Counted from the first letter of the stretch, positions 27,135 through 34,724 are shown. The stretch is 44,845 nucleotides of DNA from Lysobacterales bacterium (GCA_002715985.1 PBAO01000060.1:1-44845), one strand, 5' to 3'. Notes: generated from the letters alone by a model not told the origin. Made by a program: numbers and translations.

Positions 27135-28373
27135 TCATCCCACCGAATCCAGCGCCCGCTCGCGGCTGGCGACCATTGCCGATGGCCGGGCCGTGTCGTT
27201 TTCGTATAGATAATCGCGCGTGATCGGTACCGCCTCATTGGCATGGCTGATCTGGACATGGAAGACGATGAGATCGCCGTAACGGAATACCGCCTCGCAG
27301 CCCAGCAGATAGAACTCCCACATACGACAGAAACGCTCCCCCAAGCGTCGAGAGAACAGCTCGCGCTGGGCCTGGAATCGTGTGTTCCATGCCTTGAGGG
27401 TTTCGGCATAGTGGCGACGCCAGACTTCCAGATCGGCCAGTACCAAACCGGAGGTCTCCACGCACGGCGATATTTCGGATAACGACGGAATATAACCGCC
27501 GGGAAAGATATGCTTTTGAATCCATGTGCGGCTGTTCGCCGGCGGCGGGCCGTTGCGGCCGATGGTATGAATCAGGCTGCGCCCGTCGGGCTTGAGCAGG
27601 CGCGAGACCTGGTCGAAGAACGTCTGGTACTGCGGCCGGCCGACGTGCTCGAACATACCCACCGACACGATGGCATCGTAGGCGCCCCGGTGATCGCGAT
27701 AGTCCTGTTTGACGAACGTCACCCGGTGCGACAGCCCGAGCGCTTCGGCGCGTTTGATGGCGTGGGCGTACTGGTCATCGGACAACGTCAGACCCACGAC
27801 CTCCACGTCGTAATGACGCGCCAGATACAGGGCCATGCCGCCCCAGCCACAGCCGATATCGAGCACCTTGTCTCCCGGCGAGAGATTGAGCTTGCGCGCA
27901 ATATGCGCAAGCTTTGCCAGCTGCGCATCGTCCAGCGTCATACCCGGCTGTGACCAGTAGGCACAGGAATACTGCATCTCCGGATCGAGAAACCGCTGGA
28001 ACATATCGTTGTCGATATCGTAATGATGCGCCACGTTACGCGCGCTGCGCAGCTTGCCGTTGACCTCGGTCAAACCGCGCAGCGCGCGTCTTGCAAGCGA
28101 CATCAGGCGACTGCCACCGATATGCTCGGCGTTGGCGAAATATAGCTCGAACACCTTGGCCAGCCCGCCACGTCCCGGCCACCAGTCACCGTCGACATAA
28201 GCTTCGCCGAAAGCCATCTCCGGGTCGGAAAGCAGCCGTGCGATGACACGGCGGTCTTTCAAATGGACATGGGCGACCGGTTCACCCGAGCCATAACGGC
28301 CCTGCTCGCGCTCGCCGATCGACACCACCAGCGTACCTCGCTTAACGAGGCGATCGAACAGTTTGTCTTTCAC
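27135..28373 (-). CDS. cfa: Cyclopropane-fatty-acyl-phospholipid synthase
   Basis: The 412-residue product starts MKDKLFDRLVKRGTLVVSIG. It transfers a methylene group from S-adenosylmethionine to unsaturated fatty acids in membrane phospholipids. The N-terminal lipid-binding region has FGEAYVDGDWW. The methyltransferase part carries HHYDIDNDMFQRFLD, SCAYW, motif I VLDIGCGWGGMALYLAR and VGMFEHVGRPQYQTFF. The C-terminus has EFYLLGCEAVFRYGDLIVFH with the conserved Glu/Tyr residues. Length and motifs are standard. It converges with the symporter gene across 22 bp. It is likely stress-regulated, but no promoter box is evident in the 162 bp upstream. Confidence 0.95.
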   Translation of the reverse strand: MKDKLFDRLVKRGTLVVSIGEREQGRYGSGEPVAHVHLKDRRVIARLLSDPEMAFGEAYVDGDWWPGRGGLAKVFELYFANAEHIGGSRLMSLARRALRGLTEVNGKLRSARNVAHHYDIDNDMFQRFLDPEMQYSCAYWSQPGMTLDDAQLAKLAHIARKLNLSPGDKVLDIGCGWGGMALYLARHYDVEVVGLTLSDDQYAHAIKRAEALGLSHRVTFVKQDYRDHRGAYDAIVSVGMFEHVGRPQYQTFFDQVSRLLKPDGRSLIHTIGRNGPPPANSRTWIQKHIFPGGYIPSLSEISPCVETSGLVLADLEVWRRHYAETLKAWNTRFQAQRELFSRRLGERFCRMWEFYLLGCEAVFRYGDLIVFHVQISHANEAVPITRDYLYENDTARPSAMVASRERALDSVG

Positions 28374-28535: not shown

Positions 28536-29525
28536 ATGTCCTTGTTCTCGGCCCGTGCGCTCTGGCTCGTCCCGCCGCATCACGCGATGATCCGTGAGAT
28601 GCCGCTTGGCGCTCGGCCGGCCGATCATCTGCGTGTACGCACGCTGTATTCCGCTATCTCCAAGGGTACCGAAACCCTGGTCTATTCCGGCCGCGTTCCC
28701 GAAAGCGAGTACGCCCGGATGGCCGCGCCCTTCCAGGCCGGGCAGCTGCCCGAGCCGGTGCGTCACGGCTATGCCAACGTCGGCGTCGTCGAGGAGGGAC
28801 CGGGCGATTGGCCGGGGCGTCATGTGTTCTGTCTGTTCGGCCACCAGAGCCGATTCGATATCCCGCTCGACGCGGCGATCATCCTGCCCGACGATGTGCC
28901 GCCGGCGCGCGCAGTGCTTGCCGCCAATCTGGAGACCGCGATCAACGCGCTATGGGATGCGCCGCCGCGGGTAGGCGATCGGGTCACGGTGGTCGGTGCC
29001 GGTGTGGTCGGCGCTCTCGTGGCGGCTCTGGCCGCCGATATGCCGGGCGTGAGCGTCGAGCTGGTGGATATCGATCGCGACCGCCAGCCGCTGGCCCGGG
29101 CGCTCGGAGTGGATTTCGCCACACCGGACACGGCGGCTCGGGCGCGTGATCTGGTCTTTCATGCCAGTGCGACCGAGGCCGGGCTGAACACCGCCATCGA
29201 CCTGGCGGGGGCCGAAGCCCAGATCACCGAGATGAGCTGGTTCGGCGACAAGCGCCCGGCCATCGCCCTGGGCGGTGCCTTTCATGCCAAGCGCCTGACC
29301 CTGCGGGCCACGCAGGTCGGTACGGTGGCGCCGTCGCAAGCCGCTCGCTGGACACATGCCCGGCGTCTGGCGCTGGCCGTATCACTCTGTAACGATTCGC
29401 GTCTGGATGCCCTGTTCAACGAACGTGATGTCGTATTCGACGCCCTGCCGGGCGTGATGGCCCGCCTGGCCGAGCCGGGCGACCGCAGCCTGTGTCAACG
29501 CGTGACCTATTCGGAGAGTGCCTGA
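28536..29525 (+). CDS. MDR-superfamily oxidoreductase (zinc-alcohol-dehydrogenase-like)
   Basis: The 329-residue product has a GroES-like N-terminal domain (RTLYSAISKGTETLVYSGRV) and a Rossmann domain with VTVVGAGVVGALVAALAADM near 150-169. The catalytic zinc cysteines of classical alcohol dehydrogenases are absent and ISKGTE takes their place, as in BchC-like members. It should use NAD(P)H on an unknown substrate. ATG 28536 follows TATTGC with only weak Shine-Dalgarno character, so the start is not certain. First gene of a four-gene run: its TGA overlaps the ATG of the PTPS-like gene as TGATG. Confidence 0.8.
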   Translation: MSLFSARALWLVPPHHAMIREMPLGARPADHLRVRTLYSAISKGTETLVYSGRVPESEYARMAAPFQAGQLPEPVRHGYANVGVVEEGPGDWPGRHVFCLFGHQSRFDIPLDAAIILPDDVPPARAVLAANLETAINALWDAPPRVGDRVTVVGAGVVGALVAALAADMPGVSVELVDIDRDRQPLARALGVDFATPDTAARARDLVFHASATEAGLNTAIDLAGAEAQITEMSWFGDKRPAIALGGAFHAKRLTLRATQVGTVAPSQAARWTHARRLALAVSLCNDSRLDALFNERDVVFDALPGVMARLAEPGDRSLCQRVTYSESA

Positions 29526-29923
29526 TGTTTCATCTGACCGTTCGCGATCACATGATGATCGCCCACAGCTTCAACAGCCCCACTTTCGGCCCGGCGCAAA
29601 AACTGCACGGGGCGACTTACATCGTCGATGTCACGTTTTATCGGCCCGAACTGGACGCCGACGATCTGGTCGTGGACATCGGGGCTGCCGCGGCCGCTCT
29701 CGGCGAGATCACGCAAACGTTCAATCTCACCAACCTGGATGAGCACGAGGCGTTCGCCGGGCATAACACCACGACCGAGTTCATGGCCCGCGCGGTCTTC
29801 GATGCCATGAAAGCCGCCATCGCCGCCGACAAGCTCGGGCCCGGAGCGCACGGCGTGACGCGTCTGGGCGTGCGCCTGGCGGAGTCGCATATTGCCTGGG
29901 CCGGTTACGAGGCCGATCTGTGA
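29525..29923 (+). CDS. 6-pyruvoyl-tetrahydropterin synthase-like enzyme (altered zinc site)
   Basis: From ATG 29525 the product is 132 residues, starting MFHLTVRDHMMIAHSFNSPT. It belongs to the PTPS/QueD family (T-fold) by length, AHSF near 13-16, LHGATY near 27-32, the NLDEHEAF and GHNTTTEFMA segment and the C-terminal ESHIAWAGYE. The usual zinc ligands are His 14 and the HGH pair; here the pair reads HGA (His 28, Ala 30), so one ligand is missing. Glu 120 matches the conserved C-terminal glutamate that contacts the pterin. The active-site cysteine of PTPS is absent. Substrate and reaction therefore probably differ from biopterin or queuosine synthesis. Translated with both neighbours. Confidence 0.85.
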   Translation: MFHLTVRDHMMIAHSFNSPTFGPAQKLHGATYIVDVTFYRPELDADDLVVDIGAAAAALGEITQTFNLTNLDEHEAFAGHNTTTEFMARAVFDAMKAAIAADKLGPGAHGVTRLGVRLAESHIAWAGYEADL

Positions 29924-30984
29924 CCTCGGTGGTATTCATCGTCGCCGGCGATCCGTCGCAGCTCACCGGCGGCTATATCTATGACGCACGCATCGCAGCC
30001 GGCCTGCAGCGCGCCGGCCACGCCGTTGAAACCATTGGCCTGGCCGGACGTTTTCCGATCGCCGACGGCCGCGCGGAAAACGCCATGGCCGATACGCTGG
30101 CAGCTCTGTCAAACGATGTGCATGTCGTCATCGATGGCCTCGCCCTCGGCACGCTGGGGGGCGTCGTGGCTGCCCATCGCGGCAATCGACGTATCACCGC
30201 GCTCGTGCATCACCCCCTGGCCGACGAGGCCGGGCTGGATGCCGGGCAGATCCAACAACTCGAGACCGCAGAGCGCGCCGCACTGGCCGAGGTCGACCAC
30301 GTCATTGTCACCAGTGCCTTTACCGCGCGTCGTCTGGCCAGCACGTATGACGTAGTCGCCGAGCGCGTCAGCGTGGTCGAGCCGGGCATCCCGCGCCCGG
30401 CCACGCCTGCGCGGGCGCGCCGCGCGCCGCCGAGACGCCTGCTGTGTATCGCCACGCTGATTCCGCGCAAGGGCCACGACACGCTGGTGGCCGCACTGGC
30501 CGAACTGGCCGCACACGACTGGGTCTGTGACTTGATCGGCGATACCACGCGCGATACGGCCCATACCGCGGCCATCACCCGAGCCATCGAAGCCGCGGGC
30601 CTGAGCGAGCGCATCCATCTGCGCGGGGCTCTTGCGCCGGACGCCCTGGCCGAGGCGTATCAGGCCGCCGATCTGTTCGTGCTGGCCTCGCACTACGAAG
30701 GCTATGGCATGGTCATCACCGAGGCCATAAGCCAGGGCCTGCCCGTGGTCACGACCACCGGCGGCGCGCTGGCCGATACGCTGCCGCGCGGTGCAGGGCT
30801 GGCTGTGCCTCCCGGTGATGCGACCGCGCTCGCCGCAGCCCTGTCGCGCTGTCTGGCCGAGCCGGCGACCTACAACGACCTGGCCGCCGGCGCGCAACAG
30901 GCTGCGGCCGGCCTCAACGACTGGGACGCGGCCGGCCAGGCATTCGCCGACGCACTCGGGCTGCCCGCCCGGGCCGGCTCATGA
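29920..30984 (+). CDS. Glycosyltransferase family 4-like enzyme
   Basis: The 354-residue product starts at GTG 29920 (MTSVVFIVAGDPSQLTGGYI). It has the two Rossmann domains of GT-B enzymes. RLLCIATLIPRKGHDTLVAA opens the C-terminal nucleotide-sugar domain, and HYEGYGMVITEAISQGLPVV near 251-270 carries the EX7E pair. It should transfer a sugar from an activated donor to a small-molecule or lipid acceptor; I infer a pterin-like acceptor from the neighbours. Its stop overlaps the methyltransferase ATG. Confidence 0.85.
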   Translation: MTSVVFIVAGDPSQLTGGYIYDARIAAGLQRAGHAVETIGLAGRFPIADGRAENAMADTLAALSNDVHVVIDGLALGTLGGVVAAHRGNRRITALVHHPLADEAGLDAGQIQQLETAERAALAEVDHVIVTSAFTARRLASTYDVVAERVSVVEPGIPRPATPARARRAPPRRLLCIATLIPRKGHDTLVAALAELAAHDWVCDLIGDTTRDTAHTAAITRAIEAAGLSERIHLRGALAPDALAEAYQAADLFVLASHYEGYGMVITEAISQGLPVVTTTGGALADTLPRGAGLAVPPGDATALAAALSRCLAEPATYNDLAAGAQQAAAGLNDWDAAGQAFADALGLPARAGS

Positions 30985-31817
30985 GCGCGCCGGTCGAGGG
31001 GTCCGTATTCGATAGCACTTGGCTGGCCCTACGCGAACCGGTGGATCATGCCAGCCGGGCCCACGGCCTGAGCCGGCTGGCGGCTGGCGCGCTGGCTGCC
31101 CGGGCCACCCCGGAGGTCGTTGATCTGGGCACCGGCTCGGGCTCGAATCTGCGTTATCTGTCGGCTTATCTGCCAGGCAAGACGCGTTGGCGCCTGATCG
31201 ATCACGATGCCGCGCTGTTGGCTCGCGTGGCCGCCCATGCCGGCCATGCCTTGAGCCCGCATGTAACGACCGAAACACGGGATCTGGCGTGCGAGCTCGG
31301 CCCGGCCATCGACGGCGCTGATCTGATCACGGCCTCGGCCCTGCTGGATCTTGTCTCCGATGCGTGGCTGGATACGCTGTGCCGCGGCGCCGCCGCGCAG
31401 CGCTCAGCCGTTCTGTTCGCCCTGAGCGTTGATGGCCGGATTCGCCTGACCGGCCGGATGGACGCCGACGATCAGGCGCTACTGAGCGCCCTGGCTCTGG
31501 ATCAGCGCCGCGACAAGGGGCTGGGTACGGCCCTCGGCACGGCCGCGCCGGCCCATCTGATCAATCATCTGGCCGCTCGTGGCTACGGTGTGACCGCCAT
31601 GCCTGCCATCTGGTATCTCGACGCACGCCGGTCCGACCTCGCGGGCGCTCTGCTGGACGGATGGGCTGCCGCCGCCGGCGCGGCCTGCCCGGCCGAGGCG
31701 CACCGCTTCGATGCCTGGGCCGCGCGTCGTACCGCGGATATCACCGCCGGGCGCAGCGGCCTCGAGGTCGGCCATATCGATGTGCTGGGCCTACCCGGTC
31801 GTTGTCGTACGGCGTAG
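30981..31817 (+). CDS. Class I SAM-dependent methyltransferase
   Basis: The 278-residue product has motif I VVDLGTGSGSNLRYLSAYLP near 46-65 and a post-motif acidic LIDHDAALL near 74-82. Motif IV-like DLITASALLDLVSDAW follows near 113-128. Ring-methylating enzymes of pterin or flavin analogues would fit the context, but the sequence gives no acceptor. It overlaps the glycosyltransferase by ATGA, and its 3' end overlaps the convergent RibD-like gene by 27 bp. Confidence 0.85.
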   Translation: MSAPVEGSVFDSTWLALREPVDHASRAHGLSRLAAGALAARATPEVVDLGTGSGSNLRYLSAYLPGKTRWRLIDHDAALLARVAAHAGHALSPHVTTETRDLACELGPAIDGADLITASALLDLVSDAWLDTLCRGAAAQRSAVLFALSVDGRIRLTGRMDADDQALLSALALDQRRDKGLGTALGTAAPAHLINHLAARGYGVTAMPAIWYLDARRSDLAGALLDGWAAAAGAACPAEAHRFDAWAARRTADITAGRSGLEVGHIDVLGLPGRCRTA

Positions 31818-32627
31818 ATCAAGGTCATAGAGCCGATCCGCGCCCATCGCGTGGTCACGACAGGCCGGCCGGCGCGCCTCGGCCAGCGTCTGGATCTCGG
31901 GTAGCGACAGCCCGGGTCGGCCCGAGCCGATGAGCATCGGGGCGACCACGGTATGCAACCGGTCGATGTGTCCGGCAGCGATGAAGCCGGAAATCGTCTG
32001 TCCGCCGCCTTCGACCAGCACGCGGTGCGCGTCGTGCGCGGCCAATGTCGCCAGAATCGCGGCCGGGGCGAGCCGGCCATCGGCCTCGCGAGCCACGCGC
32101 AGCGTAGTCACACCGGGCAGTGCAGGCACATCGTCGGCGATGACATGCCAGGTGGGCGGCCCGTCGTCGATGAATACACGCCGGCCGGCACTGGCGCGCC
32201 CGTTCGGGTCGAGCACGACGCGCACCGGACTTGTGCCCGGGGCATGACGCACGGTCAGCTGCGGGTCATCGGCCTCGAGCGTGCCCACGCCGACGATCAC
32301 GGCATCCACCAGCGCCCGCAGCCGATGCAGGTGCACCCGGCTGGCCTCGCCGGTCACGTAATGGGAATGCCCGCTGGCGGTTGCGATACGCCCGTCCAGC
32401 GACTGGCCGAGCTGCGCGACAACATACGGCGCACCGCCGCAGGCGACCGGCAACAGCGTATCGAACAGCGCCGCCGCCGCCTCGCTCACCTGATTCGGCC
32501 CGGCCTGCCAGGCGCCGTCGGCCCGGATGTTCAACCCATCGGCCGGGGCAGACGTCTCGTCTGCGCACGTGCGAGCCGCATCGCGAATGATCTGCCAGGC
32601 GTAGTCGGCATCGATTAATGGCATCAT
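31791..32627 (-). CDS. RibD C-terminal-type reductase
   Basis: The 278-residue product has an N-terminal extension of about 65 residues and then the RibD reductase fold: YVVAQLGQSLDGRIATASGH, YVTGEASRVHLHRLRALVDA, VIVGVGTLEADDPQLTVR and VLVEGGGQTISGFIAAGHID. The deaminase domain (HAE and PCxxxC motifs) is absent. By family it should reduce the ribose of a 5-amino-6-ribosylaminopyrimidine phosphate with NADPH. It is divergent from the GTP cyclohydrolase II gene (95 bp apart) and convergent with the methyltransferase. Confidence 0.85.
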   Translation of the reverse strand: MMPLIDADYAWQIIRDAARTCADETSAPADGLNIRADGAWQAGPNQVSEAAAALFDTLLPVACGGAPYVVAQLGQSLDGRIATASGHSHYVTGEASRVHLHRLRALVDAVIVGVGTLEADDPQLTVRHAPGTSPVRVVLDPNGRASAGRRVFIDDGPPTWHVIADDVPALPGVTTLRVAREADGRLAPAAILATLAAHDAHRVLVEGGGQTISGFIAAGHIDRLHTVVAPMLIGSGRPGLSLPEIQTLAEARRPACRDHAMGADRLYDLDLRRTTTTG

Positions 32628-32722
32628 TGCCGCATTCTAGACTGACCGCGCCGGGAACGTGTGGCTGAGCGCCCGCTGTTTCTCCACGCCATTTTTCGCG
32701 CGGGCCAAGCAAGGACTGTCAC

Positions 32723-33844
32723 ATGCATCATGTTGAGCGTGCCATTTTCGATCTGCGTCGCGGTGTGCCCGTACTCATCGAATCCGATGAGGGCAATCGT
32801 CTCGTGGCTCCAGTCGAAGGCCTAGACAGCACGCTGCTTGCCAAATTCTTCGACGGGGCCGCCGAAGCGCCGCGCCTGGTGCTGACCGATCATCGTCTGG
32901 CACGCCTGGGCCATATTCAGCGTGACACGGCCGGCGCCCTGATGCTTGATCCCGTACGCGACAGCCGCGAAGCCATCATCGAACTGGCCTGCGCGCCCTC
33001 GGCCACGCTGGAGCAGGCCCGACCGCTCGAGGCCCTGTCGGCCGGGGATGCGGCGGGTCTGCATTTGATGCGCCGCAGTCTCCTGGTGCCAGCGGCCGTG
33101 GTGGTCGCCCCCTCGCAGCGCATGGCCGACGAACTGGCCGCCCGGGTCGCGGCCAACGACATTCTGGCCGTCACTGCCGACGATGTCGCCTTGCACTACG
33201 ACGCTGTCCCGTCGCTGCTGCGGCGTGTGAGCGAGGCCGACGTACCGCTGGAAACCGCCGAGCGCTCGCGGTTCGTGGTCTTTCGCGAGCCCGATGGCCT
33301 GCGTGAACACATCGCAATACTGATCGGCGACGACACGCACTGGGCCGATCCGGTTCCGGTGCGCCTGCATTCCGCCTGCCTGACCGGCGATCTGTTCGGT
33401 TCGCTGCGCTGCGACTGCGGGCCCCAGCTGCGCGCCAGCGTGGCCGCTATCGCCAAGCGCGGCGGTGGCGTGCTTTTATATCTGGCCCAGGAAGGCCGTG
33501 GCATCGGCCTGGCCAACAAGATGCGGGCCTACCAGATGCAGGACGAAGGCCTGGATACCGTCGATGCCGATCAGGTGCTGGGGTTTGGCAAGGACGAGCG
33601 CGACTATACCGTGGCGCGCGAAATGCTGGCCCAGCTGGCCGTCGAGCACATCGACCTGTTGACCAACAACCCGGCCAAGCTCGATGCGATGAACCAGATG
33701 CCCATCGACGTCGCCGGCCGCAGCAGTGTATTCGGCCCACTCACCGAGCAGAACCGACGCTATCTGGCCACCAAGGCCACCCGGGCCGGTCACTGGCTCG
33801 ATGCCATCCTCGCCGAGCCGGACGACGTGTCTGTGGGCAAGTGA
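32723..33844 (+). CDS. ribA: GTP cyclohydrolase II with a degenerate N-terminal RibB-like domain
   Basis: The 373-residue product has an intact C-terminal GTP cyclohydrolase II. Zinc ligands are in HSACLTGDLFGSLRCDCG (three Cys near 219-232), followed by LAQEGRGIGLANKMRAYQMQ and LGFGKDERDYT with the catalytic Asp and Arg. The tyrosine of KMRAY is kept, matching Tyr 105 of the E. coli enzyme. It would turn GTP into diaminopyrimidine ribosylamino phosphate plus formate. The first 170 residues sit where RibB lies in fused RibBA proteins, but I see none of the acidic or His motifs of DHBP synthase. AAGGA lies 8 bp before ATG 32723. Confidence 0.88.
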   Translation: MHHVERAIFDLRRGVPVLIESDEGNRLVAPVEGLDSTLLAKFFDGAAEAPRLVLTDHRLARLGHIQRDTAGALMLDPVRDSREAIIELACAPSATLEQARPLEALSAGDAAGLHLMRRSLLVPAAVVVAPSQRMADELAARVAANDILAVTADDVALHYDAVPSLLRRVSEADVPLETAERSRFVVFREPDGLREHIAILIGDDTHWADPVPVRLHSACLTGDLFGSLRCDCGPQLRASVAAIAKRGGGVLLYLAQEGRGIGLANKMRAYQMQDEGLDTVDADQVLGFGKDERDYTVAREMLAQLAVEHIDLLTNNPAKLDAMNQMPIDVAGRSSVFGPLTEQNRRYLATKATRAGHWLDAILAEPDDVSVGK

Positions 33845-33878
33845 GCCGTTGTCGGACAACCCGCGGATTGCCAGGCGC

Positions 33879-34724
33879 TCATCGAGCCTTCGGCGCGTTG
33901 CTTTGTGCACGGTCGTCACGGCTCGTCCCCGAGCCCAGCCGGGATAGATCGAACACGGCGGTCTCGTGCCAGATCTGGGCGAGACGCTCGCCGAAGGCCT
34001 CGATGAGAGCCGCGCCTTGTTCGGCGGTGGCACTGGCGGCGTTGCCGGTCACGCCTTGGGCGTTGAGATCCTCGGCGCGCCAAGCGAAGCCGGCATCGCC
34101 TTCCGGCCCGAGCGTGGCCCCGCTTGCCGCGCGCTCGGCGCCGTAGCTGGGGAAATCCGCCAGCGCGTCGCGGCGAACCCGTGCCGGCGCCAGATGCAGC
34201 ATCATCGCGGTTTCCAGTGCCCCGCCGTGCAGGCCGTGCGCCAGTTCGCTGGCGGCCAGCGTGTCGGCCGGCGGCGTGAAGCGGAAATAGCTGGCCTTGA
34301 CGACCAGCAGGCCATGATCGCTTCGCATCTGCAGAGCGGCCATATCGAGGGCGGCCTTGTTGCCGCCGTGGCTGTTGAAGATCACCAGGCGCCTGATACC
34401 GGCGCCGGCCACACCGGCGCCATAGGCCCGCAGCTGGGCCATTGCCTGTTCGCCGGACACACTCAGCGTGCCGGCAAAGCCGGTGTGTTCCAGACTGGCC
34501 CCCAGCGTCATGGCGGGTAGAACGATGATCGGGGCACGATTTTCGGGATAGCCGCGCCCGGCCGCCTCGATCAGCCCTGCACCGATGACGACATCGGTAT
34601 CCAGCGGCAAATGCGGGCCGTGTTGTTCGATCGCGGCCATCGGCAGCACCGCCACGGGATCGGCTTCGGCCAATGCGGCCAGCTCCGGGCCGGTCAGATC
34701 AGCCCAGCGATAAAGTACGCTCAT
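33879..34724 (-). CDS. Creatininase-family amidohydrolase
   Basis: From ATG 34724 the product is 281 residues starting MSVLYRWADLTGPELAALAE. Metal-binding residues are present: IEQHGPHLPLDTD (Glu 33, His 35, Asp 44), NSHGGNKAALDM and HGGALETAMM. The family includes creatinine amidohydrolase, the mycofactocin factor MftE and the archaeal FAPy deformylase ArfB that acts in riboflavin and F420 synthesis. Next to a GTP cyclohydrolase II and a RibD-type reductase, an ArfB-like formamide hydrolysis is the most attractive guess. It is convergent with ribA across 34 bp. The start upstream of ATG 34724 was rejected because the family begins there. Confidence 0.85.
   Translation of the reverse strand: MSVLYRWADLTGPELAALAEADPVAVLPMAAIEQHGPHLPLDTDVVIGAGLIEAAGRGYPENRAPIIVLPAMTLGASLEHTGFAGTLSVSGEQAMAQLRAYGAGVAGAGIRRLVIFNSHGGNKAALDMAALQMRSDHGLLVVKASYFRFTPPADTLAASELAHGLHGGALETAMMLHLAPARVRRDALADFPSYGAERAASGATLGPEGDAGFAWRAEDLNAQGVTGNAASATAEQGAALIEAFGERLAQIWHETAVFDLSRLGSGTSRDDRAQSNAPKAR

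Follow-up and report, generated by a model that had tools for sequence, protein, structure and literature searches.

A conserved gene set around an SCO6650-type T-fold protein and GTP cyclohydrolase II suggests a dedicated GTP-derived pathway in diverse bacteria

Parts of the system described here have been studied already in Streptomyces coelicolor, i.e., the structure of the protein SCO6650 and the cyclohydrolase SCO6655, a Met-type enzyme that reportedly (Spoonamore, in 2006) stops at a formylated pyrimidine. For the family COG0720, three functional classes have been described, i.e., PTPS-I (QueD), PTPS-II (biopterin), and PTPS-III (folate), and the SCO6650 type is not among them (PMC5041015). 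A creatininase-family protein, BrbF, has been established in Sinorhizobium and Brucella as the enzyme that deformylates this pyrimidine intermediate (PMC9478397). Here we analyze a locus that brings members of these families together, at positions 28536-34724 of contig C60 in the genome of a Lysobacterales bacterium (G000, 82% complete; GCA_002715985.1); the window is the whole stretch of 44,845 nucleotides (PBAO01000060.1:1-44845). When species genomes were scanned with the PTPS-like protein, the nearest matches were Salinisphaera, and we assign this salt-loving bacterium to that genus. On balance, we favor a dedicated branch pathway starting from GTP, in which opening of GTP with deformylation, ribose reduction, and paired glycosyl and methyl transfer would be joined, in most taxa, by a lipid-linked end. 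Gene content, conservation, residue changes, the sole cyclohydrolase II, and gene fusions are direct observations; the reaction steps are proposals. A preliminary description of this DNA, made from the sequence alone, had placed seven genes here, and a check of the open reading frames together with Pfam and homology matches confirmed all of them in position and family:

28536-29525, plus strand: MDR-family dehydrogenase, BchC/polyol-dehydrogenase-like, with the zinc Cys replaced by Ser
29525-29923, plus strand: T-fold protein of the SCO6650 family (annotated as PTPS/QueD, catalytic residues lost)
29920-30984, plus strand: GT4 glycosyltransferase
30981-31817, plus strand: class I S-adenosylmethionine-dependent methyltransferase (by its AlphaFold fold; under the Pfam cut-off)
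31791-32627, minus strand: pyrimidine reductase of the RibD_C type that has no deaminase domain and carries Gln in place of Lys151
32723-33844, plus strand: GTP cyclohydrolase II, N-terminal part not recognised as RibB
33879-34724, minus strand: creatininase-family amidohydrolase, proposed formamidase (the open frame reaches 34787)

The first four genes, all on the plus strand, overlap by 1, 4, and 4 bases, and the TGATG at 29523-29527 holds both the stop codon of the dehydrogenase gene and the start codon of the PTPS-like gene. The proposal that the locus is a tight unit holds for these four; the reductase, cyclohydrolase, and creatininase genes lie on alternating strands, so the seven genes are not one operon, an arrangement that the preliminary description leaves unmentioned.

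The scan with the PTPS-like protein gave 80 loci that were kept, and seven Streptomyces loci were added to make 87; these were picked by the PTPS gene and ranked by similarity, so that the counts describe the neighborhood of this gene and are no census. The cluster was observed in Gamma- and Alphaproteobacteria, Actinomycetota, Acidobacteriota, Gemmatimonadota, and Marinimicrobia, with at least six phyla represented, and gene order and strand pattern are mostly the same across taxa. Profile searches detected the dehydrogenase (85/87), GT4 (83/87), methyltransferase (77/87), reductase (70/87), cyclohydrolase II (57/87), and creatininase (44/87) near the PTPS gene. Relative to the latter, the cyclohydrolase gene is on the same strand in 57 of 57 cases, the creatininase gene on the opposite strand in 44 of 44, and the reductase gene on the opposite strand in 65 of 70. 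Given a grouping conserved over phyla, accidental neighborhood was rejected, and the recurrence of the seven families well beyond close relatives clearly goes against the refuting case named in the preliminary description, i.e., co-occurrence confined to close relatives.

Used as a marker, the PTPS-like gene was present in 27 of 398 sampled Pseudomonadota genomes, in 67 of 150 sampled Streptomyces genomes, and on 20 plasmids, and the cluster itself is carried by plasmids of Rhizobium, Thiodictyon, and Microbacterium. Rhizobium sp. SL42 has, in one stretch, genes for sulfatase, flippase-like protein, FkbM, phosphatidyltransferase, ribA, dehydrogenase, PTPS, GT4, methyltransferase, RibD, and cytochrome b, and a smaller gene set lies on a 59 kb mobilizable plasmid of Microbacterium. 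Two Streptomyces plasmids carry an SCO6650-type gene without the cluster (L127 10001-10426; L128 10001-10399), near genes for MEKHLA, cupin, and MBL-fold proteins. A phage origin of the PTPS gene was rejected, with 0 matches in 50,697 phage records.

The only PDB match of the PTPS-like protein is SCO6650 (3D7J; E 2e-41, single-sequence search), and its full-length similarity to 3D7J (also E 3.6e-63) makes it a member of the SCO6650 family. In a profile alignment, the HGH of QueD and PTPS is replaced by HGA, which is invariant in nine aligned sequences; the catalytic Cys-Asp-His triad is absent, with FGPAQ in the Cys region and the LDH of PTPS/QueD replaced. An invariant Glu near the C-terminus (ESH motif) is present in the SCO6650-type protein, as in COG0720. 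Since it has lost one zinc histidine as well as both the catalytic Cys and the catalytic His, the window protein is, judging from its residues, neither a PTPS nor a QueD, and on the same grounds the database name "6-carboxytetrahydropterin synthase" is not supported. The general rule that PTPS-like enzymes act on pterin side chains had been invoked for this protein, and it is not transferable, as the catalytic residues of PTPS and QueD are gone.

The window cyclohydrolase II (183 bits in Pfam) retains the zinc-binding Cys residues and the catalytic Asp and Arg, and has Tyr at position 105 (E. coli numbering); in the alignment, Cys54, Cys65, Cys67, Asp126, and Arg128 are kept in 65 of 65 cluster cyclohydrolases. 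Pfam recognised no RibB domain in its first 165 residues, in line with the degenerate RibB part described before. No other cyclohydrolase II was found in G000 at its 82% completeness, and a single copy, inside the cluster, was also found in G001, G002, G006, G008 (one contig), and G013, each 99% complete. Both G000 and G008 have a ribD-ribE-ribH operon without ribBA, with the ribB gene of G000 on another contig, and other Salinisphaera retain RibBA beside ribD and ribH. Being the only copy found in a genome that keeps RibB, RibD, RibE, and RibH, the window enzyme probably feeds riboflavin synthesis too, and it should be a true cyclohydrolase II, presumably making the diaminopyrimidine from GTP. 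The preliminary description stated that the seven genes do not make riboflavin. Pfam bears out that RibE, RibH, and a deaminase domain are missing from the cluster, and the riboflavin genes ribD-ribE-ribH and ribB are indeed elsewhere in the genome, but the statement was too strong, as the sole cyclohydrolase II lies in the cluster.

A creatininase gene accompanies the cyclohydrolase in 49 of 65 loci and occurs in 2 of 31 loci without it (a comparison of related loci, some incomplete, and hence no statistical test), and the metal ligands of the creatininase family (E54, H56, D65, H140, and E192) are invariant in 17 sequences. By analogy with BrbF, we propose that the window creatininase is a formamidase for 2-amino-5-formylamino-6-ribosylaminopyrimidinone phosphate. 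The seven Streptomyces loci have Met at the Tyr105 position and a creatininase gene in 7 of 7, and the gene is absent from the Tyr-type Actinoplanes loci. A formyl-producing (Met-type) cyclohydrolase in the window was rejected, as Tyr is kept there and the Met type is that of the seven Streptomyces loci. In the first step of the proposed pathway, cyclohydrolase II would convert GTP to 2,5-diamino-6-ribosylamino-pyrimidinone 5'-phosphate, the creatininase would serve as formamidase for any formylated intermediate, and the cyclohydrolase would be shared with riboflavin synthesis in G000; we regard this step, formamidase included, as likely.

The window reductase consists of RibD_C only, without the deaminase domain, and its first 66 residues match no Pfam family. 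At the equivalent of Lys151 of B. subtilis RibG, a residue that selects the deaminated substrate, the window reductase has Gln; all 70 cluster reductases have Gln, Ser, or His there, and the RibD of G000 itself keeps Lys. The best PDB match of the cluster reductase is an annotated diaminopyrimidine reductase. Replacement of the substrate-selecting Lys of riboflavin RibD by Gln points to a non-deaminated pyrimidine as the substrate. In the second step, the ribose would be reduced on the still non-deaminated pyrimidine, the order known from fungi and archaea; like the first, this step rests on conserved residues and co-occurrence, and it seems rather probable.

The same three enzymes, cyclohydrolase, creatininase, and reductase, could also form a second riboflavin-supply module for special conditions, a role proposed for BrbF in Sinorhizobium, with the rest of the cluster as bystanders. 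This would fit the window cyclohydrolase II being the only one found in the genome, and BrbF is required for riboflavin in S. meliloti (PMC9478397). However, RibD, RibE, RibH, and RibB are complete elsewhere in the genome, the cluster reductase has no deaminase domain and the lysine is lost in 70/70 loci, and the most conserved genes, i.e., those for the PTPS-like protein, the dehydrogenase, and GT4, are retained where the cyclohydrolase is absent. Riboflavin supply as the purpose of the cluster is therefore very unlikely.

The structural model of the dehydrogenase resembles polyol and ketose dehydrogenases, including TarJ and the sorbitol and xylitol dehydrogenases; the label "zinc-binding" alcohol dehydrogenase was rejected, as Ser stands in for the catalytic Cys and none of the Cys residues is invariant. 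For the third step of the branch pathway, we infer that this MDR enzyme may turn a side-chain hydroxyl into a ketone, whereupon ring closure by the 5-amino group could give a pterin-type structure, perhaps while bound to the SCO6650 protein with its zinc-free T-fold; this combination of side-chain oxidation and ring closure is doubtful. Together, reductase and dehydrogenase would also mimic an Amadori step, and the cluster could be a route to dihydroneopterin for folate that is independent of GTP cyclohydrolase I, as searches of G000, G008, and G013 gave no FolE (PF01227). Yet G008, G013, and the majority of the remaining Salinisphaera genomes encode FolE2 (PF02649), which makes their folate synthesis independent of the cluster, and most other cluster holders tested have FolE; the folate route was rejected on the presence of FolE2 in Salinisphaera and is extremely improbable. 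Broken second FolE2 copies with in-frame stops were seen in G001 (C11:209144-209894) and G007 (C178:5513-6146).

The AlphaFold model of the methyltransferase has a methyltransferase fold, for which a fold search gave generic methyltransferases only, and in 10 Marinobacter loci GT4 is fused to the methyltransferase. As a fourth step, the two enzymes would decorate the product as a pair, in our judgment quite a likely role.

In most relatives, the cluster includes lipid-type genes that are absent from the window. A CDP-alcohol phosphatidyltransferase is encoded near the PTPS gene in 70/87 loci and an LPG_synthase_TM flippase-like protein in 63/87, and further neighbors encode YceI (25/87), a sulfatase-like protein (16/87), an FkbM methyltransferase (10/87), and cytochrome b561 (4/87). 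The phosphatidyltransferase gene lies opposite to the PTPS gene in 66 of 67 cases, and its product carries the family motif DG-x2-AR-x8-G-x3-D-x3-D, with D159, G160, A163, R164, G173, D177, and D181 invariant in ten relatives. Fusions join the phosphatidyltransferase to YceI (L046 5801-7222 and L057 5784-7196), to the flippase-like protein (L066), and to FkbM (L088 and L090). YceI is a lipid-binding lipocalin-like protein, and its fusion to the phosphatidyltransferase hints at a lipophilic product. In G001, G009, G010, and G013, the lipid-type module (FkbM, flippase-like protein, sulfatase, and phosphatidyltransferase) is located at a second, unlinked locus. At this second Salinisphaera locus (L087, L088, L089, and L090) the phosphatidyltransferase is either separate or fused to FkbM; elsewhere the module is kept inside the cluster.

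Lipid-type neighbors and fusions together suggest a membrane-anchored rather than a free product. For a fifth step in most taxa, we infer that the phosphatidyltransferase and the flippase-like protein may link the product to a lipid and move it across the membrane, for which we see slightly less than an even chance. The preliminary description had expected a reduced, methylated, and glycosylated pyrimidine or pterin; a dedicated, conserved pathway outside the riboflavin operon stands, and the lipid-type genes of most relatives were missed.

Alternatively, the same front end could lead to a soluble glycosylated and methylated pterin or pyrimidine, e.g., a pigment, ultraviolet screen, signal, or antibiotic, with the lipid-type neighbors unrelated. 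Pterin glycosides are known in cyanobacteria and green sulfur bacteria, and the window genome and G008 have the seven genes without the lipid module. The phosphatidyltransferase is nonetheless found in 70/87 loci, over several phyla and in a fixed orientation, and it forms fusions with flippase-like, YceI, and FkbM proteins, which makes a soluble product somewhat unlikely.

Several points weigh against a dedicated pathway with a lipid-linked end. The lipid module was found neither in G000 (82% complete) nor in the one-contig G008, so the core must be able to do without it; no close phosphatidyltransferase homologue was found in the window or in G000, and G008, which has all seven core genes, lacks a flippase-like gene and encodes phosphatidyltransferases that are distant and probably serve housekeeping. 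The window creatininase is only weakly similar to ArfB and more so to MftE, and since Tyr105 is kept, the cyclohydrolase should, from its sequence, deformylate by itself, leaving the creatininase redundant. S. coelicolor-type clusters (5/7 Streptomyces loci) have no reductase, and loci of Kushneria and Marinobacter have no cyclohydrolase. Lastly, the order proposed for steps 2-5 and their substrates are conjectural.

Next to the cluster, a cyclopropane-fatty-acid synthase gene (window 27135-28373, minus strand) adjoins it in most Salinisphaera loci. This gene and the flanking antiporter and flavin reductase genes are conserved there mainly in Salinisphaera and were excluded from the cluster. 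In two Acidobacteria loci (L070 and L075), genes with weak similarity to cyclopropane-fatty-acid synthase also neighbor the cluster.

A full-text literature search returned no paper that describes the complete gene set or its product, an earlier mention in subscription journals being possible. A widespread, order-conserved, and plasmid-borne gene set should make something useful to the cell, and the usual annotation of its key protein is that of a queuosine enzyme, despite the lost catalytic residues. The identity of the product would explain the orphan crystal structure of SCO6650, and the metabolites of the pathway may represent a new class, derived from GTP and possibly bound to lipid. At its most speculative, and clearly unlikely as a whole, at least six phyla would use cyclohydrolase II to make a pterin-like molecule that is glycosylated, methylated, and anchored to a lipid; YceI and cytochrome b561 would handle it, and it might act as a membrane redox carrier or antioxidant. 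The Salinisphaera genomes, for their part, suggest that an enzyme of a specialised pathway can become the sole entry to vitamin B2 synthesis.

Toxoflavin, roseoflavin, and 8-azaguanine are small molecules made from riboflavin-type or GTP-cyclohydrolase intermediates, and we know of no pathway to any of them that combines an SCO6650-type T-fold protein, a GT4, and a CDP-alcohol phosphatidyltransferase. The cluster protein shares the T-fold and the Glu on the C-terminal side with PTPS-I, PTPS-II, and PTPS-III of COG0720, but has HGA for HGH and has lost the catalytic Cys and His. The SCO6650-SCO6655 locus of S. coelicolor encodes a PTPS-like protein of the same family, and in close S. coelicolor relatives, whose PTPS is 98% identical, one array holds phosphatidyltransferase, dehydrogenase, PTPS, GT4, methyltransferase, flippase-like, creatininase, and cyclohydrolase II genes. 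Loci of this type have Met in place of Tyr105 and no reductase, whereas the window keeps the Tyr and has no lipid genes. With riboflavin synthesis, be it by RibA, RibD, and BrbF or by the archaeal ArfA-ArfB-ArfC, the cluster would share GTP opening, deformylation, and ribose reduction; in contrast to riboflavin synthesis, it has glycosyl and methyl transfer in place of a deaminase, lumazine synthase, and riboflavin synthase.

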